Below the pieces are notes generated by a model. That model saw nothing but the letters and a program-made list of their open reading frames with translations, was not told the DNA's origin and searched no databases. This document shows positions 24,301 through 34,776 of a DNA stretch of 37,512 bases, piece after piece (the first letter of the stretch is position 1; the number at the start of each line of letters is the position of its first letter). The position numbers were made by a program, and so were the translations under genes. Source of the DNA: an uncultured Bacteroidota bacterium. GTDB lineage: Bacteria > Bacteroidota > Rhodothermia > Rhodothermales > UBA10348. The stretch covers positions 1 through 37,512 of the forward strand of contig CALEEY010000095.1 in NCBI GenBank assembly GCA_937877085.1. The letters are read 5' to 3'.

Positions 24301-26412
24301 TTACTTATTCGATGCTGTTGAATACTTGGCTTTGGTCACTTTCAAAAACACCGGATCGCCCAGAATCGTGAGCCTATCCCCCTCTGTCAGAAGGGTATCG
24401 CCGGTCGGAATGATGTTTTGGTCTCCTCTACGAATAACAGCAATCAAATTCCCTGAAGGCAATTTCATTTCCTTCAAGGTTTTTCCGAGTAGCTCCGATG
24501 TACCTGAATGGGCCCGAATGGTTAGGTACAAGAAGTGCTCCTCTTTGAGCAACACTTCTTTAAGTTCTGCTTCATCCGAAGCCGAATCCCACTCCAAACG
24601 AAATTCAGGACTATCGACACGACGCGCAATTTGAGCGAGTATGCGTAGATGTTGACCGGGGTCTTCCTTGGGGCTGATTAAAAAGAAGATCGCATGTACC
24701 GTCGATTCCGGCGTATCTGGACTCAGTTCTAAGTCAGGAGCGAGCAAACGAACGCCCGATTTAGCCCGCACAATGACCATTTCAGGATTTAGGAGCCCTT
24801 CGAGGCTCAAATGGGGTAGGGCGACGCCTTTGGTGACGGGTGTAGCACCTACCCGCGTTCCTTCTAAAAACTTGCGAGCAATGTTATGAGAGGTCAACGG
24901 GATCCGGTGGGACAAGCGAGAGGATGCTTGTTCAACAACATCTTCAAACGTCGTCGAGAGATCTAGGTCCATGACGAAGCTGCGCGCGATAATTTCGTCG
25001 AAGGGATCGTCCGTCCGAAGGCCTTTTTCCTTTAAGATGGTGCGTAATTCGCGGTCCAAGTCGGTGCTACTGCTTCTTCCAAGGCGCTCGAATATGTTAA
25101 AAATGGCCCCACTGCGCTCAATTCTGCTGGAAGCATAGTACCGGTACCATAGCGCGCCGAACCACAACATGCCGACGGTAAACGCTACAGATAAATACCC
25201 CATTTGGAATATCAACCAGAGCGAAGCGATAATCCCAACAATCTGAAGCCACGGATAGAATGGGCTTTTGAATCCCGGATCGTATGAATCCAAACGGGCT
25301 TCTCGCATCACGATAACGGCTATCGTGCTCATCGTAAACATAAGCAACTGGAAGGACGAGGCCAGTTTTGCAATCTTTAAAGGGTTGAGAACCGTCACAA
25401 ACAACACGACGATGGCTGTTGTAACCAAGACGGAAACCCAGGGAGCCGATGTTTTTTTGGTGAGTCGACTCATAAAGTCGGGCAGCAACCGATCCCGGCT
25501 CATGGCCATTGGGTACCGAGAGGCGCTTAGAATACCTGAATTGCCAACGGACAAAAACGCCAGCACGGCGGCAATGGTCATCAATATTTTTCCCCAATTG
25601 CCTACTAAGAGGTCTGCCGTAGTCGCGACAGGGGTTAAATCGCCCCCATTCAAACTGAGAGCTTCTACCCCCACGACCCCAACCATGACGGTCGTTCCAA
25701 TCATATACACGACAATAGCCGTGATGTAAGCCAGAAACATCCCTAGGGGGAGATTGCGTTCCGGATTTTTTACTTCGCCAGCTACGCTGGCCACTTTAGT
25801 GAGACCCATGTAGCTGACAATGACCAAACCAGCGGTAGAAATCAACGAGCCTGAAGGCGTAGCGAGCAATTCACTAAAATGGCTGGCCTCGATATTAAAT
25901 AGGCCTAAACCGCTAAACCAAGCAAGAAGTAGCAAGAGCCCTATTACTAAAACACCTTGCGCCGTTCCGGTCTTTTTGGCCCCCAACAAGTTAATGACGC
26001 CAAAAATTACGGCTAAACCAACCGCAACCGTTTTTATCTGCAGATTGGGGAAAAATAATCCCAGATAGGCCCCCACACCAATGAGCGCAAAGGAGGTTTT
26101 CAGAATGAGCGAAAACCAGGTCCCAAACCCCGACATCGTTCCCCAAAGCGGGCCCATCGATCGATCTAGAAAAAAGTAGACTCCACCCGAGCGTGGCATG
26201 GCCGTAGCTAACTCAGCCTTGGCAAACAGCCCGGGAAGTAGGAAGAGCGCAGCAATCAGATAAGCAAATGGCAGGGCTGAGCCCACGCTTGCGGCCGCGA
26301 TTCCAGGGAGCAAGAAGAAACCACCTGCGAGTGTAGAGCCTGTTGCCAATGCGTACACATCAAACAGGCCCAGTTCTTTTTTCAGTTTTGACGAATCGGG
26401 GGTTTTCGCCAT
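24301..26412 (-). CDS. APC family amino acid permease fused to PTS EIIA-like and RCK_C/TrkA_C-like domains
   Basis: 703 aa; YALATGSTLAGGFFLLPGIAAASVGSALPFAYLIAALFLLPG (APC TM region); C-terminal KGVALPHLSLEGL (EIIA-2-like His site); LGKTLKEMKLPSGNLIAVIRRGDQNIIPTGDTLLTEGDRLTILG (RCK_C). Confidence 0.87.
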   Translation of the reverse strand: MAKTPDSSKLKKELGLFDVYALATGSTLAGGFFLLPGIAAASVGSALPFAYLIAALFLLPGLFAKAELATAMPRSGGVYFFLDRSMGPLWGTMSGFGTWFSLILKTSFALIGVGAYLGLFFPNLQIKTVAVGLAVIFGVINLLGAKKTGTAQGVLVIGLLLLLAWFSGLGLFNIEASHFSELLATPSGSLISTAGLVIVSYMGLTKVASVAGEVKNPERNLPLGMFLAYITAIVVYMIGTTVMVGVVGVEALSLNGGDLTPVATTADLLVGNWGKILMTIAAVLAFLSVGNSGILSASRYPMAMSRDRLLPDFMSRLTKKTSAPWVSVLVTTAIVVLFVTVLNPLKIAKLASSFQLLMFTMSTIAVIVMREARLDSYDPGFKSPFYPWLQIVGIIASLWLIFQMGYLSVAFTVGMLWFGALWYRYYASSRIERSGAIFNIFERLGRSSSTDLDRELRTILKEKGLRTDDPFDEIIARSFVMDLDLSTTFEDVVEQASSRLSHRIPLTSHNIARKFLEGTRVGATPVTKGVALPHLSLEGLLNPEMVIVRAKSGVRLLAPDLELSPDTPESTVHAIFFLISPKEDPGQHLRILAQIARRVDSPEFRLEWDSASDEAELKEVLLKEEHFLYLTIRAHSGTSELLGKTLKEMKLPSGNLIAVIRRGDQNIIPTGDTLLTEGDRLTILGDPVFLKVTKAKYSTASNK

Positions 26413-26520
26413 GTGCTTCTCAGTTGAATGAACGGTGGTCTTCCGCCTTTATAATACGGGTTTTTGGCGGTGTAGACGATCTGATGAAGAATAATTAAAA
26501 CAAGAAGGCCCTTTTTTTGT

Positions 26521-26677
26521 GGCAACCGTTGTGGTGGTCGCAGGGCGTGCTTCTTTGGACTGGAAGAAATCAACGGGAAAGGATATAAAACTTCTGACCT
26601 TTTATTTGGATGTTGATTTCTTCAACGTCCTCACAACCACGCCCTGCGACCTCACGCCCAACGAGACTACGGTTGCC
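26521..26677. repeat. Hairpin element copy 1: imperfect long inverted repeat with asymmetric core
   Basis: Complementary blocks: 26521-26529/26669-26677 (GGCAACCGT), 26536-26549/26638-26651 (GGTCGCAGGGCGTG), 26557-26560/26627-26630 (GGAC), 26563-26574/26612-26623 (GAAGAAATCAAC). 37-nt loop. Confidence 0.9.
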
Positions 26678-26881
26678 AATTCCAAATGGCACCTTGGATT
26701 TGTTTGTAGCGTTCTCAAAAGCATGCCCCGCTCCCAAAACAAGCTGACTCATTTGGACCTCATTCCTCCCAGAATCGGAGCTTGTATCAGAATCCTTCTC
26801 CTCCTACATTCGAAGTGATTTTCGGTCCCTTCGAGATCGGCCAATGGAACAGGAGCACAGGGAAAAGACAGTGAGAAGAGA

Positions 26882-27898
26882 ATGAGACAAGCCGTCATGA
26901 CAGCCCCCGGGGTGATCAAGCATAACGAAGTACCGGAGCCAGTCCCCGGACCCGGCGAAGTACTGCTCCGCATCCACAGAATCGGTGTTTGTGGGAGCGA
27001 TGTCCATGTCAATCATGGCAAACATCCATTCACACCGTATCCAGTGATTCAGGGCCACGAGTTTTGTGCCACCATTGAGTCGCTTGGTCAAGGAGTTGAC
27101 GGTTTTGCAATCGGGTCCAAGGCTACCGCACTGCCTCAGATTGTGTGTGGAGCATGCGATCGATGTTTAGAAGGCCATTTCCATATCTGCGATAGCCTAA
27201 AAGTCCGTGGATTTCAAGCTCCGGGCGTCGCTCAAGACTTATTTGTGACCGAAGCCGACAAGCTCATTGCCTTACCTGAGTCCTTCTCGTTTGAACAAGG
27301 CGCCTTTGTCGAACCCGCAGCCGTGGCCATTCGGGCTACACGAAGAGCTGGAAATCTTGACCAGTTGAATGTTGCCGTTCTGGGAGCTGGACCTATCGGC
27401 AACCTGACTGCCCAGATGTGTCGCGCCCGCGGCGCTAAGGTTCTCATAACCGACATGAGCGAATATCGGCTTGACGTAGCCAGCCAATGTGGAATTGACG
27501 CGACATCCAATCCTCAAAGCGAATCCTTACATGCGGCCTCTCTTCGAGTATTTGGCCGACGCGGAATTGATGTCGTCTTTGACTGCGCCGGAGTCCAGGA
27601 AACGATTAGCGCGGCCATCGACACGGTAAATAAAGGAGGTACCGTCGTGGTCGTTGCCGTGTACGGCGAAAAGCCGCGAGTGGACCTCGCTGTGGTGGGG
27701 GATCGTGAGCTTAGCATCGTAGGGACGTTGATGTACCAACATGCTGACTACGAAGAGGCCGTTTTGCGCATTGAATCAGGAGATATCAACACCATCCCAT
27801 TAGAGACCAAACATTTTCCATTTGCTGAGTTTTCTGCTGCGTATGATTTCATTGACCGAGAGGGACCTCGAAGCATGAAGGTGTTTATTGACCTCTAA
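26882..27898 (+). CDS. zinc-dependent MDR alcohol/polyol dehydrogenase
   Basis: 338 aa; GVCGSDVHVNHGKHP, IQGHEFCA, CGACDRCLEGHFHIC (structural Zn), VLGAGPIGNLTAQ (Rossmann). Confidence 0.92.
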   Translation: MRQAVMTAPGVIKHNEVPEPVPGPGEVLLRIHRIGVCGSDVHVNHGKHPFTPYPVIQGHEFCATIESLGQGVDGFAIGSKATALPQIVCGACDRCLEGHFHICDSLKVRGFQAPGVAQDLFVTEADKLIALPESFSFEQGAFVEPAAVAIRATRRAGNLDQLNVAVLGAGPIGNLTAQMCRARGAKVLITDMSEYRLDVASQCGIDATSNPQSESLHAASLRVFGRRGIDVVFDCAGVQETISAAIDTVNKGGTVVVVAVYGEKPRVDLAVVGDRELSIVGTLMYQHADYEEAVLRIESGDINTIPLETKHFPFAEFSAAYDFIDREGPRSMKVFIDL

Positions 27899-28781
27899 AC
27901 ACGTCACGGTGGCCTTAAACGCTCCAAAAATCGTCGGAATCGGCGAACTTCTGTGGGATGAATATCCCGAGGGGCGGCAAATGGGCGGCGCCCCTGCCAA
28001 TTTCGCCTATCACTGCCAAGTGCTTGGTGCACAGTCTTTTATAGTCAGCGCTGTGGGGCAGGACGAGGCGGGGCGAGATTTGTTTGAGGCTCTTGCGGCG
28101 CAGAACCTGGATACTTCACACGTCGATACCCGCCCAGGCTATCCAACAGGGTCGGTTTCTGTTCACTTGGACCCCGACGGTATCCCGGCCTACACCATCC
28201 ATGAACCCGTGGCTTGGGATTTCCTTCAGTCAACTCCCCAGTTGCAACGTCTTGCCTCGCAAGCTGATGCCGTTTGTTTTGGCACACTCGCCCAGCGATC
28301 ACCGATTTCTCGCACCACGATTCAGTCTTTTCTCCGAGCAACCGGGCCCAGTTGTATTCGGGTTTTTGATATAAACCTGCGTCAGGAGTTCTATGACCGC
28401 TCCGTCATAATAGAAGGCTTGTCCCTCGCGACGGTTTTGAAGCTAAATGAGGACGAGCTCGTGATTCTGGCCCACCTTTTAGGACTGGACGGCACTACGC
28501 ACGACCTCCTGGGCCAACTGGCCACCCAGTTTGCACTAAACACCGTTGCGCTCACCATGGCCGAACGAGGATGCATCGTTCGCACGCAAGACGCGGTTGT
28601 GCATCTTGAAGGGGTAAGGCGCGGCCCTGTAATAGACACGGTTGGAGCTGGCGACTGTTGGACAGCCGTTCTTATCATGGGAATGCTAAATAAAGACCCA
28701 ATAGACGAGGTCGCAGCACGAGCCAACTGGCAAGCGGCGTACGTTTGTACTCAACCGGGTGCCATGCCTGAAATGCCGTAA
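27888..28781 (+). CDS. PfkB family sugar kinase (fructokinase-like)
   Basis: 297 aa; GIGELLWDEYPEGRQMGGAPANFAYH, INLRQEFY, DTVGAGDCWTAVLIMGML (PfkB signature). TTG start overlapping the upstream stop is tentative. Confidence 0.9.
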   Translation: MTSKHVTVALNAPKIVGIGELLWDEYPEGRQMGGAPANFAYHCQVLGAQSFIVSAVGQDEAGRDLFEALAAQNLDTSHVDTRPGYPTGSVSVHLDPDGIPAYTIHEPVAWDFLQSTPQLQRLASQADAVCFGTLAQRSPISRTTIQSFLRATGPSCIRVFDINLRQEFYDRSVIIEGLSLATVLKLNEDELVILAHLLGLDGTTHDLLGQLATQFALNTVALTMAERGCIVRTQDAVVHLEGVRRGPVIDTVGAGDCWTAVLIMGMLNKDPIDEVAARANWQAAYVCTQPGAMPEMP

Positions 28782-28828
28782 CTTCAACCGGCGCAATCAA
28801 ATATCGGAAAAGAACCATCGCACAGACT

Positions 28829-29998
28829 ATGATCAAAAATTTTGGATTTCATGTCCCCACCGAAGTACAATTTGGTGTGGGAAAGATCGCGGGTGTCGGG
28901 GAGGCGGTTGCTCGATTCGGAAATCGCTGCCTCTTGGTCACAGGCCCGAAGTCTGGCTCGGTGCGCCACTATCTACCTCGGCTAATTTCCCTACTCGAAA
29001 GCGCTGGTATTTCGGTCGCTCATTTTGACGGAGTCATTCCAAATCCGACCACGGACACCATTCATGCGGGTGCGCTAATGGCCGCGAAGCACCGGGCTGA
29101 TGTTGTGCTCGGTGTGGGCGGTGGCTCAAGCATGGATGCAGCAAAAGCCATCGCCGTTGAAGCGACGCACGAAGGCAGCTGCTGGGACTATCTTTTTTAT
29201 AAAGATGCGAAGCCCACCGAAAAAACACTGCCCGTCGTGGCCGTTTCCACAACCTCGGGGACCGGCGCTCAGGTCACCCAAGTATCGGTCGTTACGCATA
29301 CGGCGACGCGGGATAAGTCGGCTTTGTACAATTCGCTCATCTTCCCGCGTGTGGCCATTGTCGATCCCGAGCTCATGCTCAGCGTTCCAAAATATGTGAC
29401 GGCGTGCACAGGTTTCGATACGTTTACTCATGCTTTTGAAAGTGCCATACACGTCAATACCTCGCCGTATGTGGAGTTGATGGCTTGGGAAGCCATTTCG
29501 CTCGTTTTCTCCAATTTACCTGCCGCTCTGCAGGATGGATCGAACATGGAAGCCCGTACGGCGCTAGCGTACGCGGACACGCTGGCCGGGATGTGTATTG
29601 CGAATGCTGGAGTCACCTTGCCACACGGAATCGGCATGGCGATTGGCGGAATGTATCCACACATTGCACACGGTGAAGCCCTTGCGCTCAATTATCCAGC
29701 TTTCATGCGCTTCACGTACGCCTCAGCTGTAAAGCCCTTTGCGAAACTAGGCCGGATGCTAAATCCAAAACTAAAGGATGTGGATGACGAGACTGCGGCG
29801 AAAAAGTCGTGCGACGAACTGGACCTCTTCCTTAAGCAGATTGGACTTTGGAAGGGCCTGGAAGAGATGCAGGTCCCCGAAGAAGAGCTTGAGCTCTTAG
29901 CTAAGCAATGCCGAGTGCTTCCTGACTATATGAACAACCCACGCGTCGCCTCAGAAGCGGATATGCTTCATCTGATGCAGCAGTGCTTTAGACGTTAA
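28829..29998 (+). CDS. iron-containing (group III) alcohol dehydrogenase
   Basis: 389 aa; VQFGVGKI, VVLGVGGGSSMDAAKAIAV, STTSGTGAQVT, DTFTHAFES, LPHGIGMAIG. Confidence 0.93.
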   Translation: MIKNFGFHVPTEVQFGVGKIAGVGEAVARFGNRCLLVTGPKSGSVRHYLPRLISLLESAGISVAHFDGVIPNPTTDTIHAGALMAAKHRADVVLGVGGGSSMDAAKAIAVEATHEGSCWDYLFYKDAKPTEKTLPVVAVSTTSGTGAQVTQVSVVTHTATRDKSALYNSLIFPRVAIVDPELMLSVPKYVTACTGFDTFTHAFESAIHVNTSPYVELMAWEAISLVFSNLPAALQDGSNMEARTALAYADTLAGMCIANAGVTLPHGIGMAIGGMYPHIAHGEALALNYPAFMRFTYASAVKPFAKLGRMLNPKLKDVDDETAAKKSCDELDLFLKQIGLWKGLEEMQVPEEELELLAKQCRVLPDYMNNPRVASEADMLHLMQQCFRR

Positions 29999-30037
29999 CC
30001 TTTTCATTTCACCAGATTCATTCCATAGGAAAGCGGT

Positions 30038-31657
30038 ATGACGACACTCGATATTGCCATCGTGGCCACTTACATGTTAGGGATCATGGGTATCGGGATC
30101 TATGCCGGATACCGAAAGAATACCTCCAGTACACAGTTTTTTCTGGCTGGAAAATCTCTCCGTTGGCCGATTATTGGTGCGGCCCTTTTCACGGCAAATA
30201 TCTCTACGATTCACCTCGTGGGCCTCGCTGCCGATGGATATCGGATCGGCTTTGTGGTGGGCAATTTCGAATGGATGGCCACGTTTACGCTCATCGTGTT
30301 GGGCTTGATATTCGTACCGTTCTACCTGCGAAGCAATATCACGACGCTACCAGAATTCCTTGAGAAGCGGTACAGCCCTGCCCCAAGGTTGATTTTGGCG
30401 GTCATTACCGTCATTTCGGCCCTGTTAATCCACATTGGAATTAGCATCTATGCTGGAGCGATGGTATTCCTGTACTTTTTTGGGATACCCGTGCTTTGGT
30501 CCGTGGTCGCCATTGCTGTCGTTGCAGCCACCTATACCATTATCGGCGGGCTTCGAGCCATCGCAGTCACGGACTCCATTCAGGCTGTCTTGCTACTCTC
30601 TGGGGCCATTGTTCTGACCCTTTTTGCCATTTTCGCCTTGCCCGAACACGGCATCCATTCTTTCGCAGATCTGCAAGCAGCCGTCAAGCCTGACCAACTG
30701 AACATGCTGCACTCATTCCGGAATCCAGAGACCGGCAGACTGAACGAGTATTCCTGGGTGTCGGTTCTTTTAGGCTATCCCATATTGGGAATCTGGTATT
30801 GGTGTACTGATCAGACCATTGTACAGACAACGCTGGGTGCACGAAGCATGAGGGACGGTCAATTGGGGGCCATCTTCGCTGGGGGGCTCAAAATCCTACC
30901 CCTCTTTTTTATGGTACTACCTGGCGTTCTGGGATATGTCCTGTTTCAAGATATTATTGAAACCCCAAATGACACGTTGCTGGTCATGATTCAAGAACTC
31001 TTGCCAACCGGTTTGAAGGGCCTGCTAGCTGCGGGAATGTTGGCTGCTGTGATGAGTACCGTTGAATCGGCCATGAACAGTACGGCAACAATTGTAGCAG
31101 AAGACATTGTCAAGAAAATGCGCCCTGAGACCAGTGATAAGGCGCTTGTAACTATTGGAAGAATCACCGCTGCGGTTGTAATCGTTCTTGCCATCTTCTG
31201 GTCGCCTTACGGTGGTAAATTTGTGAGCATCTTCGAGGCCATCAATAAGATCCCAATGATGTTTGCGCCTGCCATCACGTGCGTGTTTCTCTTCGGAGTT
31301 TTCTGGAAACGAGGCACTAAGGAAGCAGCTGTTTCGACCTTAGTGTTCGGTCTAATAATTGGCGTCGCTTATTTCCTCGTAGACCTTCCGGTGATAGGGG
31401 ACACACGCCTTGTTGCAGATACCTTGGGCATCCCGTTTATGCAAGTGGGATGGTGGCTGTTCTGCCTGTGTTCAGTGGTCTATGTGGTTACCAGTCTCCT
31501 GACTCCTCCTACGCCCGATGCACAGCTTGAGGCCATTCAGTGGGAACCACCAATGAAGGCCATTCTAGGTACACGAATAGACAGTTTAACCGACCCAAGA
31601 GCCGTGTCAATCGGTTTGGTTGTGCTAATGGCCATCCTGTATTTCTGGCTGAGTTAA
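30038..31657 (+). CDS. sodium:solute symporter (SSS) family transporter
   Basis: 539 aa; FFLAGKSLRWPIIGAALFTANISTIHLVGLAADGYRIG, YTIIGGLRAIAVTDSIQAVLLLSG, GLLAAGMLAAVMSTVESAMNSTATIVAEDI are SSS/SGLT motifs. Confidence 0.93.
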   Translation: MTTLDIAIVATYMLGIMGIGIYAGYRKNTSSTQFFLAGKSLRWPIIGAALFTANISTIHLVGLAADGYRIGFVVGNFEWMATFTLIVLGLIFVPFYLRSNITTLPEFLEKRYSPAPRLILAVITVISALLIHIGISIYAGAMVFLYFFGIPVLWSVVAIAVVAATYTIIGGLRAIAVTDSIQAVLLLSGAIVLTLFAIFALPEHGIHSFADLQAAVKPDQLNMLHSFRNPETGRLNEYSWVSVLLGYPILGIWYWCTDQTIVQTTLGARSMRDGQLGAIFAGGLKILPLFFMVLPGVLGYVLFQDIIETPNDTLLVMIQELLPTGLKGLLAAGMLAAVMSTVESAMNSTATIVAEDIVKKMRPETSDKALVTIGRITAAVVIVLAIFWSPYGGKFVSIFEAINKIPMMFAPAITCVFLFGVFWKRGTKEAAVSTLVFGLIIGVAYFLVDLPVIGDTRLVADTLGIPFMQVGWWLFCLCSVVYVVTSLLTPPTPDAQLEAIQWEPPMKAILGTRIDSLTDPRAVSIGLVVLMAILYFWLS

Positions 31658-31681
31658 TTTTTCTTCAGTGTCTTCTTGGTC

Positions 31682-31788
31682 GTGGGTCGGTATTCCTCGG
31701 ACTGGAAGAAATCAACGGAAACGGATTCAACATCCGCTGACTACTTAATGGTATGTTGATTTCTTCAACGTCCTCGCCATCTCGCCCC
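31682..31788. repeat. Hairpin element copy 2, same orientation as copy 1
   Basis: GGAC 31699-31702 / GTCC 31770-31773; GAAGAAATCAAC 31705-31716 / GTTGATTTCTTC 31755-31766; 38-nt loop. Same core and same TG versus AAC asymmetry as copy 1; outer arms only partly complementary, so outer borders are approximate. Confidence 0.85.
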
Positions 31789-31876
31789 ACTCCCCTTTGG
31801 GGGGCTCAGATCCTAACAATTCCCACTAATCTCGAAAGCCCTTCAACTTCCTTTTGGGGGTAGAGGGGCATTTTGA

Positions 31877-31910
31877 GGACATTCGGAAAATGTCCCATTT
31901 TCCGCAGTCC
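31877..31910. other. Overlapping alternative hairpins
   Basis: CGGAAAATG-TCC-CATTTTCCG (31884-31904), inside GGAC/GTCC, competes with GGACATT-CGGAA-AATGTCC (31877-31895). Confidence 0.6.
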
Positions 31911-31953
31911 GAGGAATGGCCCTTTACTTCCTGATGTGATGGCGGAGCGGGTG

Positions 31954-31971
31954 TGTTTCGCTGGCGAAACA
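31954..31971. other. Palindrome TGTTTCGC-TG-GCGAAACA, possible operator
   Basis: 8-bp perfect arms with 2-nt centre. Confidence 0.4.
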
Positions 31972-32075
31972 GTTTTGAGAGTGGCACGCGGGGAATATGA
32001 TCGTTTTTAGGTTGTTTTGGAGGGTTTTGTGGTCTGATAGCGGCGCGGCATGGCGCTTCCAAAAGAAGCAAGGTT

Positions 32076-32106
32076 GCAGGGGGCGGGTCTTTGACCCGCC
32101 CCCTGC
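32076..32106. other. Perfect 14-bp GC-rich hairpin with TTT loop
   Basis: GCAGGGGGCGGGTC-TTT-GACCCGCCCCCTGC; no T-tract after it on the plus strand. Confidence 0.8.
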
Positions 32107-32239
32107 TCCGTTTATACGTTTACTGCGAAATGTGCGATCCATTGGACCCACTCTGATGGATCAATGGTTAATGGGGCAGCGGCAGTTTAGGGTTAGAGAC
32201 TCGCCCACCAAAGAATTCAGTTAAACGAACATCGCAACC

Positions 32240-33658
32240 ATGAACATTTTTCTGACAGGCGCCACAGGATTTATTGGCCGAGCCCTCGTTCTTCGTTTAC
32301 GACGCGATGGACATCAGGTCACCGCTTTCGTGCGCAACGAAAAGCGTGCTCGGTCACTGTTGGGCCACGAGTGTACGTTTCTTGAAACTAGCGTCGACCC
32401 GTCTGCACTCAAAAAGGCCATAGCGGCATCAGATGCCGTCATCAACACTGCGGGAGAACCGTTGCTAGGAAAACGGTGGGATGAGAAGCGGTTGGACTCC
32501 ATTCGAAAAAGCCGGCTGGATGTGACGAGGCAATTAGTAGATGCCATGGCCCAGGAAACGGCACCCAAAGTCTTCATTTCGACAAGTGCCGTCGGTATTT
32601 ACGGAGATGGCCAGGATACTATTTTGACGGAAGAGTCAGAAGCTGGCACCGATTTTTTGGCAACATTGTGCCGCGACTGGGAATCTGAAGCCATCAAAGC
32701 CCGAGATCTTGGCGTTCGAGTCGTGCGATTGCGCATTGGCGTCGTTCTGGGTCGAGGCGGAGGTGCATTGGATCAAATGCTTTTGCCATTCAACCTAGGT
32801 GTGGGTGGTCCGATCGGAACCGGCAAACAATATGTGCCTTGGATTCACATCGAAGACCTCGTTGACCTTTTCGTAGCCGGGTTAAACAATCCTGCTATGT
32901 CGGGCGCTTTTAATGCAACAGCGCCCACCCCCGTCACCTTTAAAGCATTTGCAACGGCTCTCGGTAAGCAGTTGAAGCGGCCTTCATTCATACCCGTTCC
33001 CGAGTTTGCCGTCAAACTTCTTTTTGGTGACGCCTCGATCGTCCTTTTGCAAGGCCAACGCGCCATTCCGGCCCATACCCAAAAGGTTGGCTTTACGTAT
33101 CGGTTTGAAACCATTGAAGCTGCACTCGCAGATTTGCTGCAAAACGACTTTGTCAAAATTGAAGATGCTGGTTCTGACTATCCCCAATCGGAGTATCTCC
33201 AAAAAACGCCTCCAGCGTTCGTATTGCAGACATCAACAGTGATCGACCGACCCATTGAGGAGGTCTTTCCTTTCTTTTCGCGGCCCGAAAACCTCGGATT
33301 GATTACCCCGTCGGCTATGCAATTTCGCATCACGAGTCTTCCAGATGTTATGGAAGATGGGGCCTTGATTGATTACACATTGAAAGTGGGCCTCGTGCCC
33401 ATTAAGTGGCGAACGCGGATAGAAGACTGGGAAGACGGTCGCAAGTTTGTTGATTCTCAGCTCGAAGGCCCCTACAGCTGCTGGTGGCACGAACACTCGT
33501 TTACCCCAGACGGCAATCGGACGATTATGACTGACCGCGTGTTTTACACACCGCCCGTTGGCCCCATTGGCCGGGCAGTCAACTCTCTGTTCATAGCTGG
33601 ACAATTGCAGCAAGTGTTCGGATACCGCTCAAGCGTACTCCGACTTCGTTTCGGTTGA
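32240..33658 (+). CDS. TIGR01777-type SDR epimerase fused to SRPBCC-like domain
   Basis: 472 aa; MNIFLTGATGFIGRALVLRLRRDGHQV, INTAGEPLLGKRWDEKRLDSIRKSR, FISTSAVGIYGD; C-terminal VIDRPIEEVFPFFSRPENLGLITPSAMQFRI (SRPBCC). Confidence 0.92.
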   Translation: MNIFLTGATGFIGRALVLRLRRDGHQVTAFVRNEKRARSLLGHECTFLETSVDPSALKKAIAASDAVINTAGEPLLGKRWDEKRLDSIRKSRLDVTRQLVDAMAQETAPKVFISTSAVGIYGDGQDTILTEESEAGTDFLATLCRDWESEAIKARDLGVRVVRLRIGVVLGRGGGALDQMLLPFNLGVGGPIGTGKQYVPWIHIEDLVDLFVAGLNNPAMSGAFNATAPTPVTFKAFATALGKQLKRPSFIPVPEFAVKLLFGDASIVLLQGQRAIPAHTQKVGFTYRFETIEAALADLLQNDFVKIEDAGSDYPQSEYLQKTPPAFVLQTSTVIDRPIEEVFPFFSRPENLGLITPSAMQFRITSLPDVMEDGALIDYTLKVGLVPIKWRTRIEDWEDGRKFVDSQLEGPYSCWWHEHSFTPDGNRTIMTDRVFYTPPVGPIGRAVNSLFIAGQLQQVFGYRSSVLRLRFG

Positions 33659-33714: not shown

Positions 33715-34776
33715 TTATATGCGCTGAAGCCGAATGGGATAGGTTTGCTCTGCGTTCCACTGACAAACGTAGATGTTTTTGTCTTCGTCAATGCATACGT
33801 CGTGGCAGTGGTGAAATACTTTTTCCTGTTGAACCATCACCTGTAAAACGCCATCCCGGTACTCAGGAGCCGTACCCCCGGGATTCGATACCACCGTGCC
33901 TTTAGAATCCAAAATGGTCACAAAACCCGAATTCGGAGTTTGGTTCAGGTACTTTAGCCGCGACCAACAGGCTCCAGAATACAACATATCATCATCAATA
34001 ACGGCGCGGCAGACAAAGGCTCCCGGTAAAAACAAGGTTTCCAGATATTCGCCTTCCATGGTGAACCTTTTGAACGCGTTGTGGCCGCGGGACGTAATCA
34101 ACAGGGTATCAGGACCCGGCCCCCGGCTGTCTACGCATACCCCGTGTGCCGTGGAAAATTCAGCATCTCCATCGCCCCGTCCACCGAATTTTCGGATGAA
34201 GTGACCTTCCTTTGAAAATTGCAAAATCCATTGGCTACCGTACCCGTCGGCCACATATACGTCGCCATTTGACGCGACCGCTGTTTCTGTGGGATGAAAA
34301 TTGTCGGTCTCTGGGTAGACTCCAATATCTTTGGGAACAGGTAACCGCATAACCTCGCGCCCCTCCAACGTGGTTTTAACCACTTGCGGATTTCCGCCAA
34401 ACCCATTGTCGCAGATCCACAAATACTCCGCATCCCCTTCGTCTGAGATGGTTAGGCCGTGCCCATCCGGGAATGAATTGCCCCAACTTCCGAGATACTT
34501 GCCACTTTTATCATAAATAATAATGTTGTTCTTGGTCTCGTCGGTAATCATGATGAGGCGACCAAACCGATCTTGCACCATTTCGTGGCAATTCTTAACC
34601 GGAGTAGACATCGGATCTAAATTTCCCCAGTCTCGGTCTACCGAATATTGAAAGTCGCCGTGGCCAATAATCTCTTTGGGCGCGGCTTTTTTTGAGATGA
34701 TGTGTAGTGCGCGCGGCATAAAAGATGCTCCTGCTGTGGCTAGAAGGCCGTGTTTGGTAAACGTGCGTCGGTTCAT
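33715..34776 (-). CDS. Tat-exported NHL/six-bladed beta-propeller-like protein
   Basis: 353 aa; Tat-like MNRRTFTKHGLLATAGASF; FGRLIMITDETKNNIIIYDKSGKYLGSWG, YVADGYGSQWILQFSKEGHFIRKFGGRGDGDAEFSTAHGVCVDSRG. Confidence 0.82.
   Translation of the reverse strand: MNRRTFTKHGLLATAGASFMPRALHIISKKAAPKEIIGHGDFQYSVDRDWGNLDPMSTPVKNCHEMVQDRFGRLIMITDETKNNIIIYDKSGKYLGSWGNSFPDGHGLTISDEGDAEYLWICDNGFGGNPQVVKTTLEGREVMRLPVPKDIGVYPETDNFHPTETAVASNGDVYVADGYGSQWILQFSKEGHFIRKFGGRGDGDAEFSTAHGVCVDSRGPGPDTLLITSRGHNAFKRFTMEGEYLETLFLPGAFVCRAVIDDDMLYSGACWSRLKYLNQTPNSGFVTILDSKGTVVSNPGGTAPEYRDGVLQVMVQQEKVFHHCHDVCIDEDKNIYVCQWNAEQTYPIRLQRI

Follow-up and report, generated by a model that had tools for sequence, protein, structure and literature searches.

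The window, that is, the whole stretch of 37,512 nucleotides analysed here (contig CALEEY010000095.1 of an uncultured Bacteroidota bacterium), contains a four-gene operon bracketed by two copies of one hairpin. This raises the question of what these hairpins are and whether they had a part in bringing the operon to its present site. A preliminary description of the DNA had offered three explanations: a mobile or REP-like element that assembled or moved the operon as a cassette, a structured RNA at both transcript ends, or direct repeats allowing excision of the operon as a circle. The hairpin element is called E below, and the features of the region are as follows.

24301..26412, minus strand: amino-acid permease with PTS EIIA and TrkA-C domains, left neighbour, used as site marker in relatives
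26508..26736, plus strand: E1, full-length hairpin element (core 26543-26644, inner hairpin 26557-26630), outer arms TGGCAACCGT.../...ACGGTTGCCA
26882..27898, plus strand: Zn-dependent alcohol dehydrogenase (Zn-ADH; Pfam PF00107/PF08240)
27888..28781, plus strand: PfkB carbohydrate kinase (Pfam PF00294)
28829..29998, plus strand: Fe-containing alcohol dehydrogenase (Fe-ADH; Pfam PF00465)
30038..31657, plus strand: sodium:solute symporter (SSF/SSS; Pfam PF00474)
31685..31787, plus strand: E2, second copy in the same orientation, ~22-28 nt past the symporter stop
31863..31924, minus strand: E3, inverted third member with the same frame, inner stem CGGAAAATG-GGA-CATTTTCCG
31953..32135, plus strand: F1 relic (leader 31953-32065, terminator-like hairpin ~32076-32106)
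32240..33658, plus strand: epimerase/DUF1731 protein, right neighbour, adjoining the right E of the operon in G005 too
33715..34776, minus strand: NHL-repeat gene, with the permease as near neighbour in G001, G004 and G005

The two hairpins were found exactly where the preliminary description had placed them, at 26557-26630 and 31699-31773, both on the plus strand. The left arm GGACTGGAAGAAATCAAC matches exactly at 26557-26574 and 31699-31716 and the right arm GTTGATTTCTTCAACGTCC at 26612-26630 and 31755-31773, again all on the plus strand, against a chance expectation of 0.02-0.04 matches for each arm pattern even when 3 mismatches are allowed. The claims of identical inner arms (12 nt, equal in both), loops of 37 and 38 nt, a spacing of 5142 bp (core start to core start) and an equally oriented TG/AAC asymmetry all held, and coordinates and Pfam domains agree that the interval contains exactly the Zn-ADH, PfkB, Fe-ADH and symporter genes. 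Folding z-scores of the two hairpins were -9.0 and -2.9.

Several features had gone unnoticed. E1 has an outer stem, including 25-nt arms of 84% complementarity as well as TGGCAACCGTTGT/ACTACGGTTGCCA, that extends the hairpin to ~190 bp in all. The window holds the inverted E3 with its different inner stem, and the same genome, G000, has a third copy of the E1/E2 inner stem on a different contig (C206), 3' of nrdJ. E1 is homologous over 26508-26726 to the element 3' of nrdJ (C206, G001) and over 26670-26736 to G003, the inner hairpin and loop of E2 share 96% identity over 83 bp with the nrdJ-linked copy on C206, and E3 sits within 125 bp that match a stretch downstream of nrdJ in G002 at 90% identity. 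E1 and E2 are equal at 78 of 103 positions and differ in outer arms and loops, so that they are not a fresh duplication; together with the recurrence of E-operon-E in a separate assembly (G005), this also makes a false assembly join unlikely.

Covariance models (R1 built from seven members, then R2 from sixteen) were used to search the genome and its relatives, as the preliminary description had proposed, and revealed a dispersed family of ~20 copies in five of the six genomes of the genus (G000 to G005). The counts per genome range from 1 to 7 (G000 5-6, G001 1, G002 6-7, G003 3, G005 3-4) and are lower bounds because the searches were prefiltered. G003 has one additional weak copy at hprK. 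The same covariance-model search detected no E in G004 and no convincing E in a further 35 genomes from the family and order; the relatives are draft genomes, some near 84% complete, with those of the genus at 84-100%. A pattern scan of genome_contigs found a single record, a MAG contig of an uncultured Bacteroidetes bacterium with the same sequence as contig C124 of G001. The pattern TCGGACTGN{20,50}GTCCTC was too strict and gave one match. Two matches of the left arm in viral_contigs (L021, L022) lacked the hairpin and were put down to chance or coding sequence. Hits on G001 C30 (~21 bits), in G022 (20 bits, E-value 0.1) and at L053:10458 (17 bits) were taken as noise. There was no E match above the gathering score in Rfam, and a literature search did not find the family described. 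Its members have the frame UC-GGAC-U[G/A]-stem/stem-AA[C/U]-GUCC-UCA with variable inner and outer stems, and nearly all of 21 members keep the 4x4 and TG/AAY internal loops. Inverted pairs occur (E2/E3, C207a/b and C261b/c of G002), and half-elements are also present among the dispersed copies. By the sequences compared, E is a family of imperfect palindromes in intergenic DNA, limited to this genus in the searches made. A dockerin-like reading of the hairpin loop was dropped on inspection by eye, the frames shifting and the site being intergenic.

Several positions of E are common to different species. Five genomes have an element 3' of nrdJ, three (G000, G002, G003) have one 3' of hprK, where G004 and G005 have none, and two (G000, G003) have one 3' of smc. 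Both operon ends carry E in G000 and G005. Such conserved sites could also reflect function with little movement. Mean identity was 0.66 for pairs from the same genome at different sites, 0.59 for pairs at the same site and 0.55 for pairs sharing neither. A permutation test gave p=0.0003 for the genome label and p=0.16 for the site label, values that serve as a guide only since copies were treated as independent. E2 and the nrdJ copy of G000 are equal at 72 of 74 positions of inner hairpin and loop. Between G000 and G001, the genome closest to it in permease identity (90%), the nrdJ copies agree at 68 of 74. Likewise, the smc and hprK copies of G003 have the core CTGAAAGAATGGGACATTCTTTC in common, unlike the copies of G000. 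As judged from these alignments, E copies are homogenised within each genome, though their positions are partly conserved.

The operon itself is present in G000, G004 and G005 (Fe-ADH identity 79%), and G001-G003 have only distant relatives of the Fe-ADH. It adjoins a divergent sulfatase gene in G004 and G005 and the permease in G000. In G005 the operon is flanked by E on both sides, in the same orientation, with the epimerase gene next, while a 106-bp gap without E lies upstream of the operon of G004. The operon-E-epimerase adjacency common to G000 and G005 could be whole-block inheritance. The window's site was found without the operon in G001, G003, G004 and G005, also without E in G003 and G004 and with one E in G005. 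In G003, G004 and G005 the permease adjoins an intact gene of F1, a secreted-protein family, with a single intervening E only in G005; in G000, therefore, additional DNA separates the permease promoter from the F1-leader relic, where the F1 gene itself is missing. The 115-bp repeat at 31953-32065, considered as a second mobile repeat, was rejected, being the conserved leader of F1 genes. Homology of the permease promoter stops near 26464, within 44 bp of the start of E1 at 26508, and E3 stops at 31924, within 30 bp of the F1-leader homology that begins near 31953. No target-site duplication was seen at permease/F1, where the flanks align poorly. The comparison of empty and occupied sites that had been suggested thus yielded operon-free sites, but none that aligns closely enough to reveal exact E-to-E recombination. 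At a second place, hprK and PepX are directly adjacent in G005, are separated by three E copies in G002, and in G000 are separated by one E and ~4 kb that include HipA-type genes. E recurs at rearranged edges, namely permease/operon, hprK/PepX and nrdJ/next gene.

REP, BIME and REPIN elements have been described as imperfect palindromes of intergenic DNA that conserve unpaired bases, often follow genes and form inverted pairs and clusters (PMC3733652, PMC8266576, PMC2817692, PMC3116915). E shares with REP/BIME repeats its short palindromic form in intergenic DNA, the conservation of unpaired or bulged bases and the inverted pairs. It differs in its larger outer stem, its two conserved internal loops, the lack of GTAG at the hairpin foot (members judged by eye) and its copy number, which is 1-7 detected per genome as lower bounds whereas REPs are reported to exceed 100 copies usually (PMC2817692). 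Furthermore, the RAYT domain PF01797 was matched in none of the six genus genomes (84-100% complete), against 7 of 27 genomes searched, with positive controls. On copy number, GTAG tag and RAYT, then, E is not classed as REP/BIME, though it behaves like one. REPs with a CGTC tag, reported also in Bacteroidetes, lack a dedicated transposase in the account of PMC3733652. E likewise has a CGTC-like motif beside the stem (AACGTCC, with TGTC variants). The elements of that account have an unpaired CGTC/TGTC tag, an 8-9 bp stem, a 4-5 nt loop and a CCA tail (PMC3733652), whereas E has a paired GTCC on the 3' side of the inner stem, larger stems and loops and no CCA tail. E also differs from ERIC-type and other stem-loop repeat families in the lack of an Rfam match, in a modular inner stem swapped as a block and in its link with operon edges. 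ERIC-type repeats are, like E, intergenic imperfect palindromes of 100-230 bp whose mobility is unclear, and stem-loop repeat families are reportedly covered by one published survey. E is best read, from sequence comparison, as a low-copy family that would work like a REP/BIME repeat.

The stems bear on whether E acts as DNA or as RNA. Among 16 members, 68 cells of the stems had changes in both partners, compared with 23 in shuffles, and sliding the pairing partners destroyed the signal (at most 18). Both unpaired stretches are kept while the stems change. Across 21 members, the GGAC and inner stems contain 253 Watson-Crick, 3 A-C and 13 other pairs and not a single G-U pair. Selection on RNA helices usually leaves G-U intermediates, and the strong covariation without G-U pairs is read as maintenance of the stems at the DNA level, which these data suggest. 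The proposal that E is a structured RNA, either a 3'-end hairpin stabilising or terminating transcripts or the target of an RNA-binding protein, with a regulon of nrdJ, hprK, smc and the operon, draws on stable folds, on this same covariation with conserved internal loops, and on the first E being co-oriented with the gene at 12 of 12 post-stop placements (four independent sites: nrdJ, symporter, smc, hprK); within-genome similarity would then be co-evolution with a species-specific partner. This orientation at gene 3' ends speaks for the second explanation of the preliminary description. However, G-U pairs are absent despite two-sided changes at many stem positions, some copies sit between divergently oriented genes or ahead of the operon, at nrdJ E stands after an apparent terminator, hprK lacks it in G004 and G005, and Rfam offers no match, so that a structured RNA is considered unlikely. 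Template switching at quasipalindromes can yield compensatory changes without RNA selection (PMC8794818), and E resembles hairpins of this kind in its Watson-Crick stems. Acting alone, template switching should also remove the conserved asymmetric loops, which E retains, and it leaves the similarity between distant E sites unexplained.

The first explanation of the preliminary description, a REP-like repeat tied to a cassette, is the best supported of its three as far as sequence comparison goes: the family is dispersed, the operon is bracketed by E in two species and contexts, and operon-free sites exist. Its stricter part, a non-autonomous mobile element, did not fare as well, with no Y1/RAYT match in the genus, no target duplication seen, partly conserved positions and low copy number. 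It had been stated that the hairpin at many unrelated sites apart from cassettes would favour a generic interspersed repeat, which is in part what was found, because most E sites outside the operon are single-gene 3' ends. The opposite outcome, just two copies with the operon fixed in every relative, does not agree with the genomes. A MITE- or REPIN-like element whose hairpin-recognising transposase is extinct or absent from the drafts, with the operon trapped as in a composite transposon, would account for the dispersed copies, the inverted pairs and half-elements (E2/E3; C207 and C261 of G002), the ~220 bp that E1 shares with the nrdJ site, and asymmetric loops conserved as in the REPs that TnpA_REP is reported to read (PMC8266576). 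It is nevertheless rather improbable, given the missing PF01797 matches, the 1-7 copies detected per genome, positions largely common to different species and no target duplication seen at the poorly aligning permease/F1 flanks. Excision and insertion of the operon as a circle by a tyrosine recombinase acting on attC-like sites is highly improbable: the same operon does have same-orientation E copies at two different loci, and the hairpin is bulged with a variable apical part, but the core consensus GTTRRRY/RYYYAAC was not seen by eye in the E frame, there is no cassette array and most E sites are single. Finally, the E-operon-E-epimerase block may have arisen once and been inherited, its left flank being rearranged later without E, which would then be a passive old palindrome. 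Operon-E-epimerase and several E sites are indeed common to different species, but the recurrence of E at rearranged edges and the homogenised cores leave this account with little probability.

The explanation favoured here, to which an even chance is given, is that E is a REP/BIME-like low-copy hairpin homogenised by DNA copying that serves as a recombination portal for the operon. The hairpin core would be copied between E sites at the DNA level, by gene conversion, replication template switching or a putative hairpin nuclease, and such copying would give concerted evolution with nearly pure Watson-Crick stems. Conversion tracts below 100 bp are short for RecA. The resulting direct repeats could serve as homology portals; from an ancestor in which the four-gene operon was flanked by E, recombination between E copies may have joined the operon to the permease/F1 site, giving E-operon-E. 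Just past a stop codon, E probably also caps the mRNA 3' end. Gene conversion plus recombination between short direct repeats would be the simplest account without a dedicated enzyme, and a richer one adds the putative hairpin-specific nuclease. That an enzyme of the genus reads the E hairpin as ssDNA, overwrites E cores and moves E-bounded operons, with conserved landing sites 3' of housekeeping genes, is a long shot; if true, operons would move as cassettes with no known transposase taking part.

Hairpin repeats in bacteria are generally attributed to RAYT transposases or left without explanation. E is a low-copy family with partly fixed positions, a sequence rewritten in concert within species and pure Watson-Crick covariation, which makes DNA copying and RNA selection separable in a testable way. 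It would also provide a concrete case of hairpin repeats marking the ends of a relocated operon.

The region 3' of nrdJ contains a stretch that is about 81-87% conserved in five species (extracted locus L062, 11906-12050, and the equivalent place in L063, L058, L055 and L060). A strong terminator (GCGTCCGG...CCGGACGCCATTTTTTT) closes this stretch, which had no match in Rfam and could be an unrecognised RNA. The start of the nrdJ-linked copy of the hairpin repeat E falls inside the T-run of this terminator. After smc of G003, E half-elements with repeated TTTCAACGTCTTCC were found in an array (L121, 4765-5000), which suggests decay or partial duplication of E. Between PepX and hprK, G000 harbours a HipA-type gene with small neighbours (L053, 5212-7173) that are absent from this interval in G005 and G002; this segment is possibly a recent insertion adjoining an E copy.

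The window also harbours part of a locus of F1, a family of secreted proteins:

31953-32135, conserved F1 leader (~115 bp) and terminator-like hairpin, F1 coding gene missing

Unlike the window, G001, G003, G004 and G005 have the leader followed by an intact F1 gene. The F1 proteins (about 157-190 amino acids, signal-like start) had no match in Pfam.

The permease left of the operon (24301-26412, minus strand) has an unusual-looking architecture, with PTS EIIA and TrkA-C domains fused to an amino-acid permease. The epimerase gene adjoins the operon in G000 and the permease in G003, and in G001, where it lies downstream of the nrdJ-linked E, an F1 gene stands on either side of it (contig C124; L063, 11515-13818). 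With its different neighbours, the epimerase gene thus also changes place between genomes.
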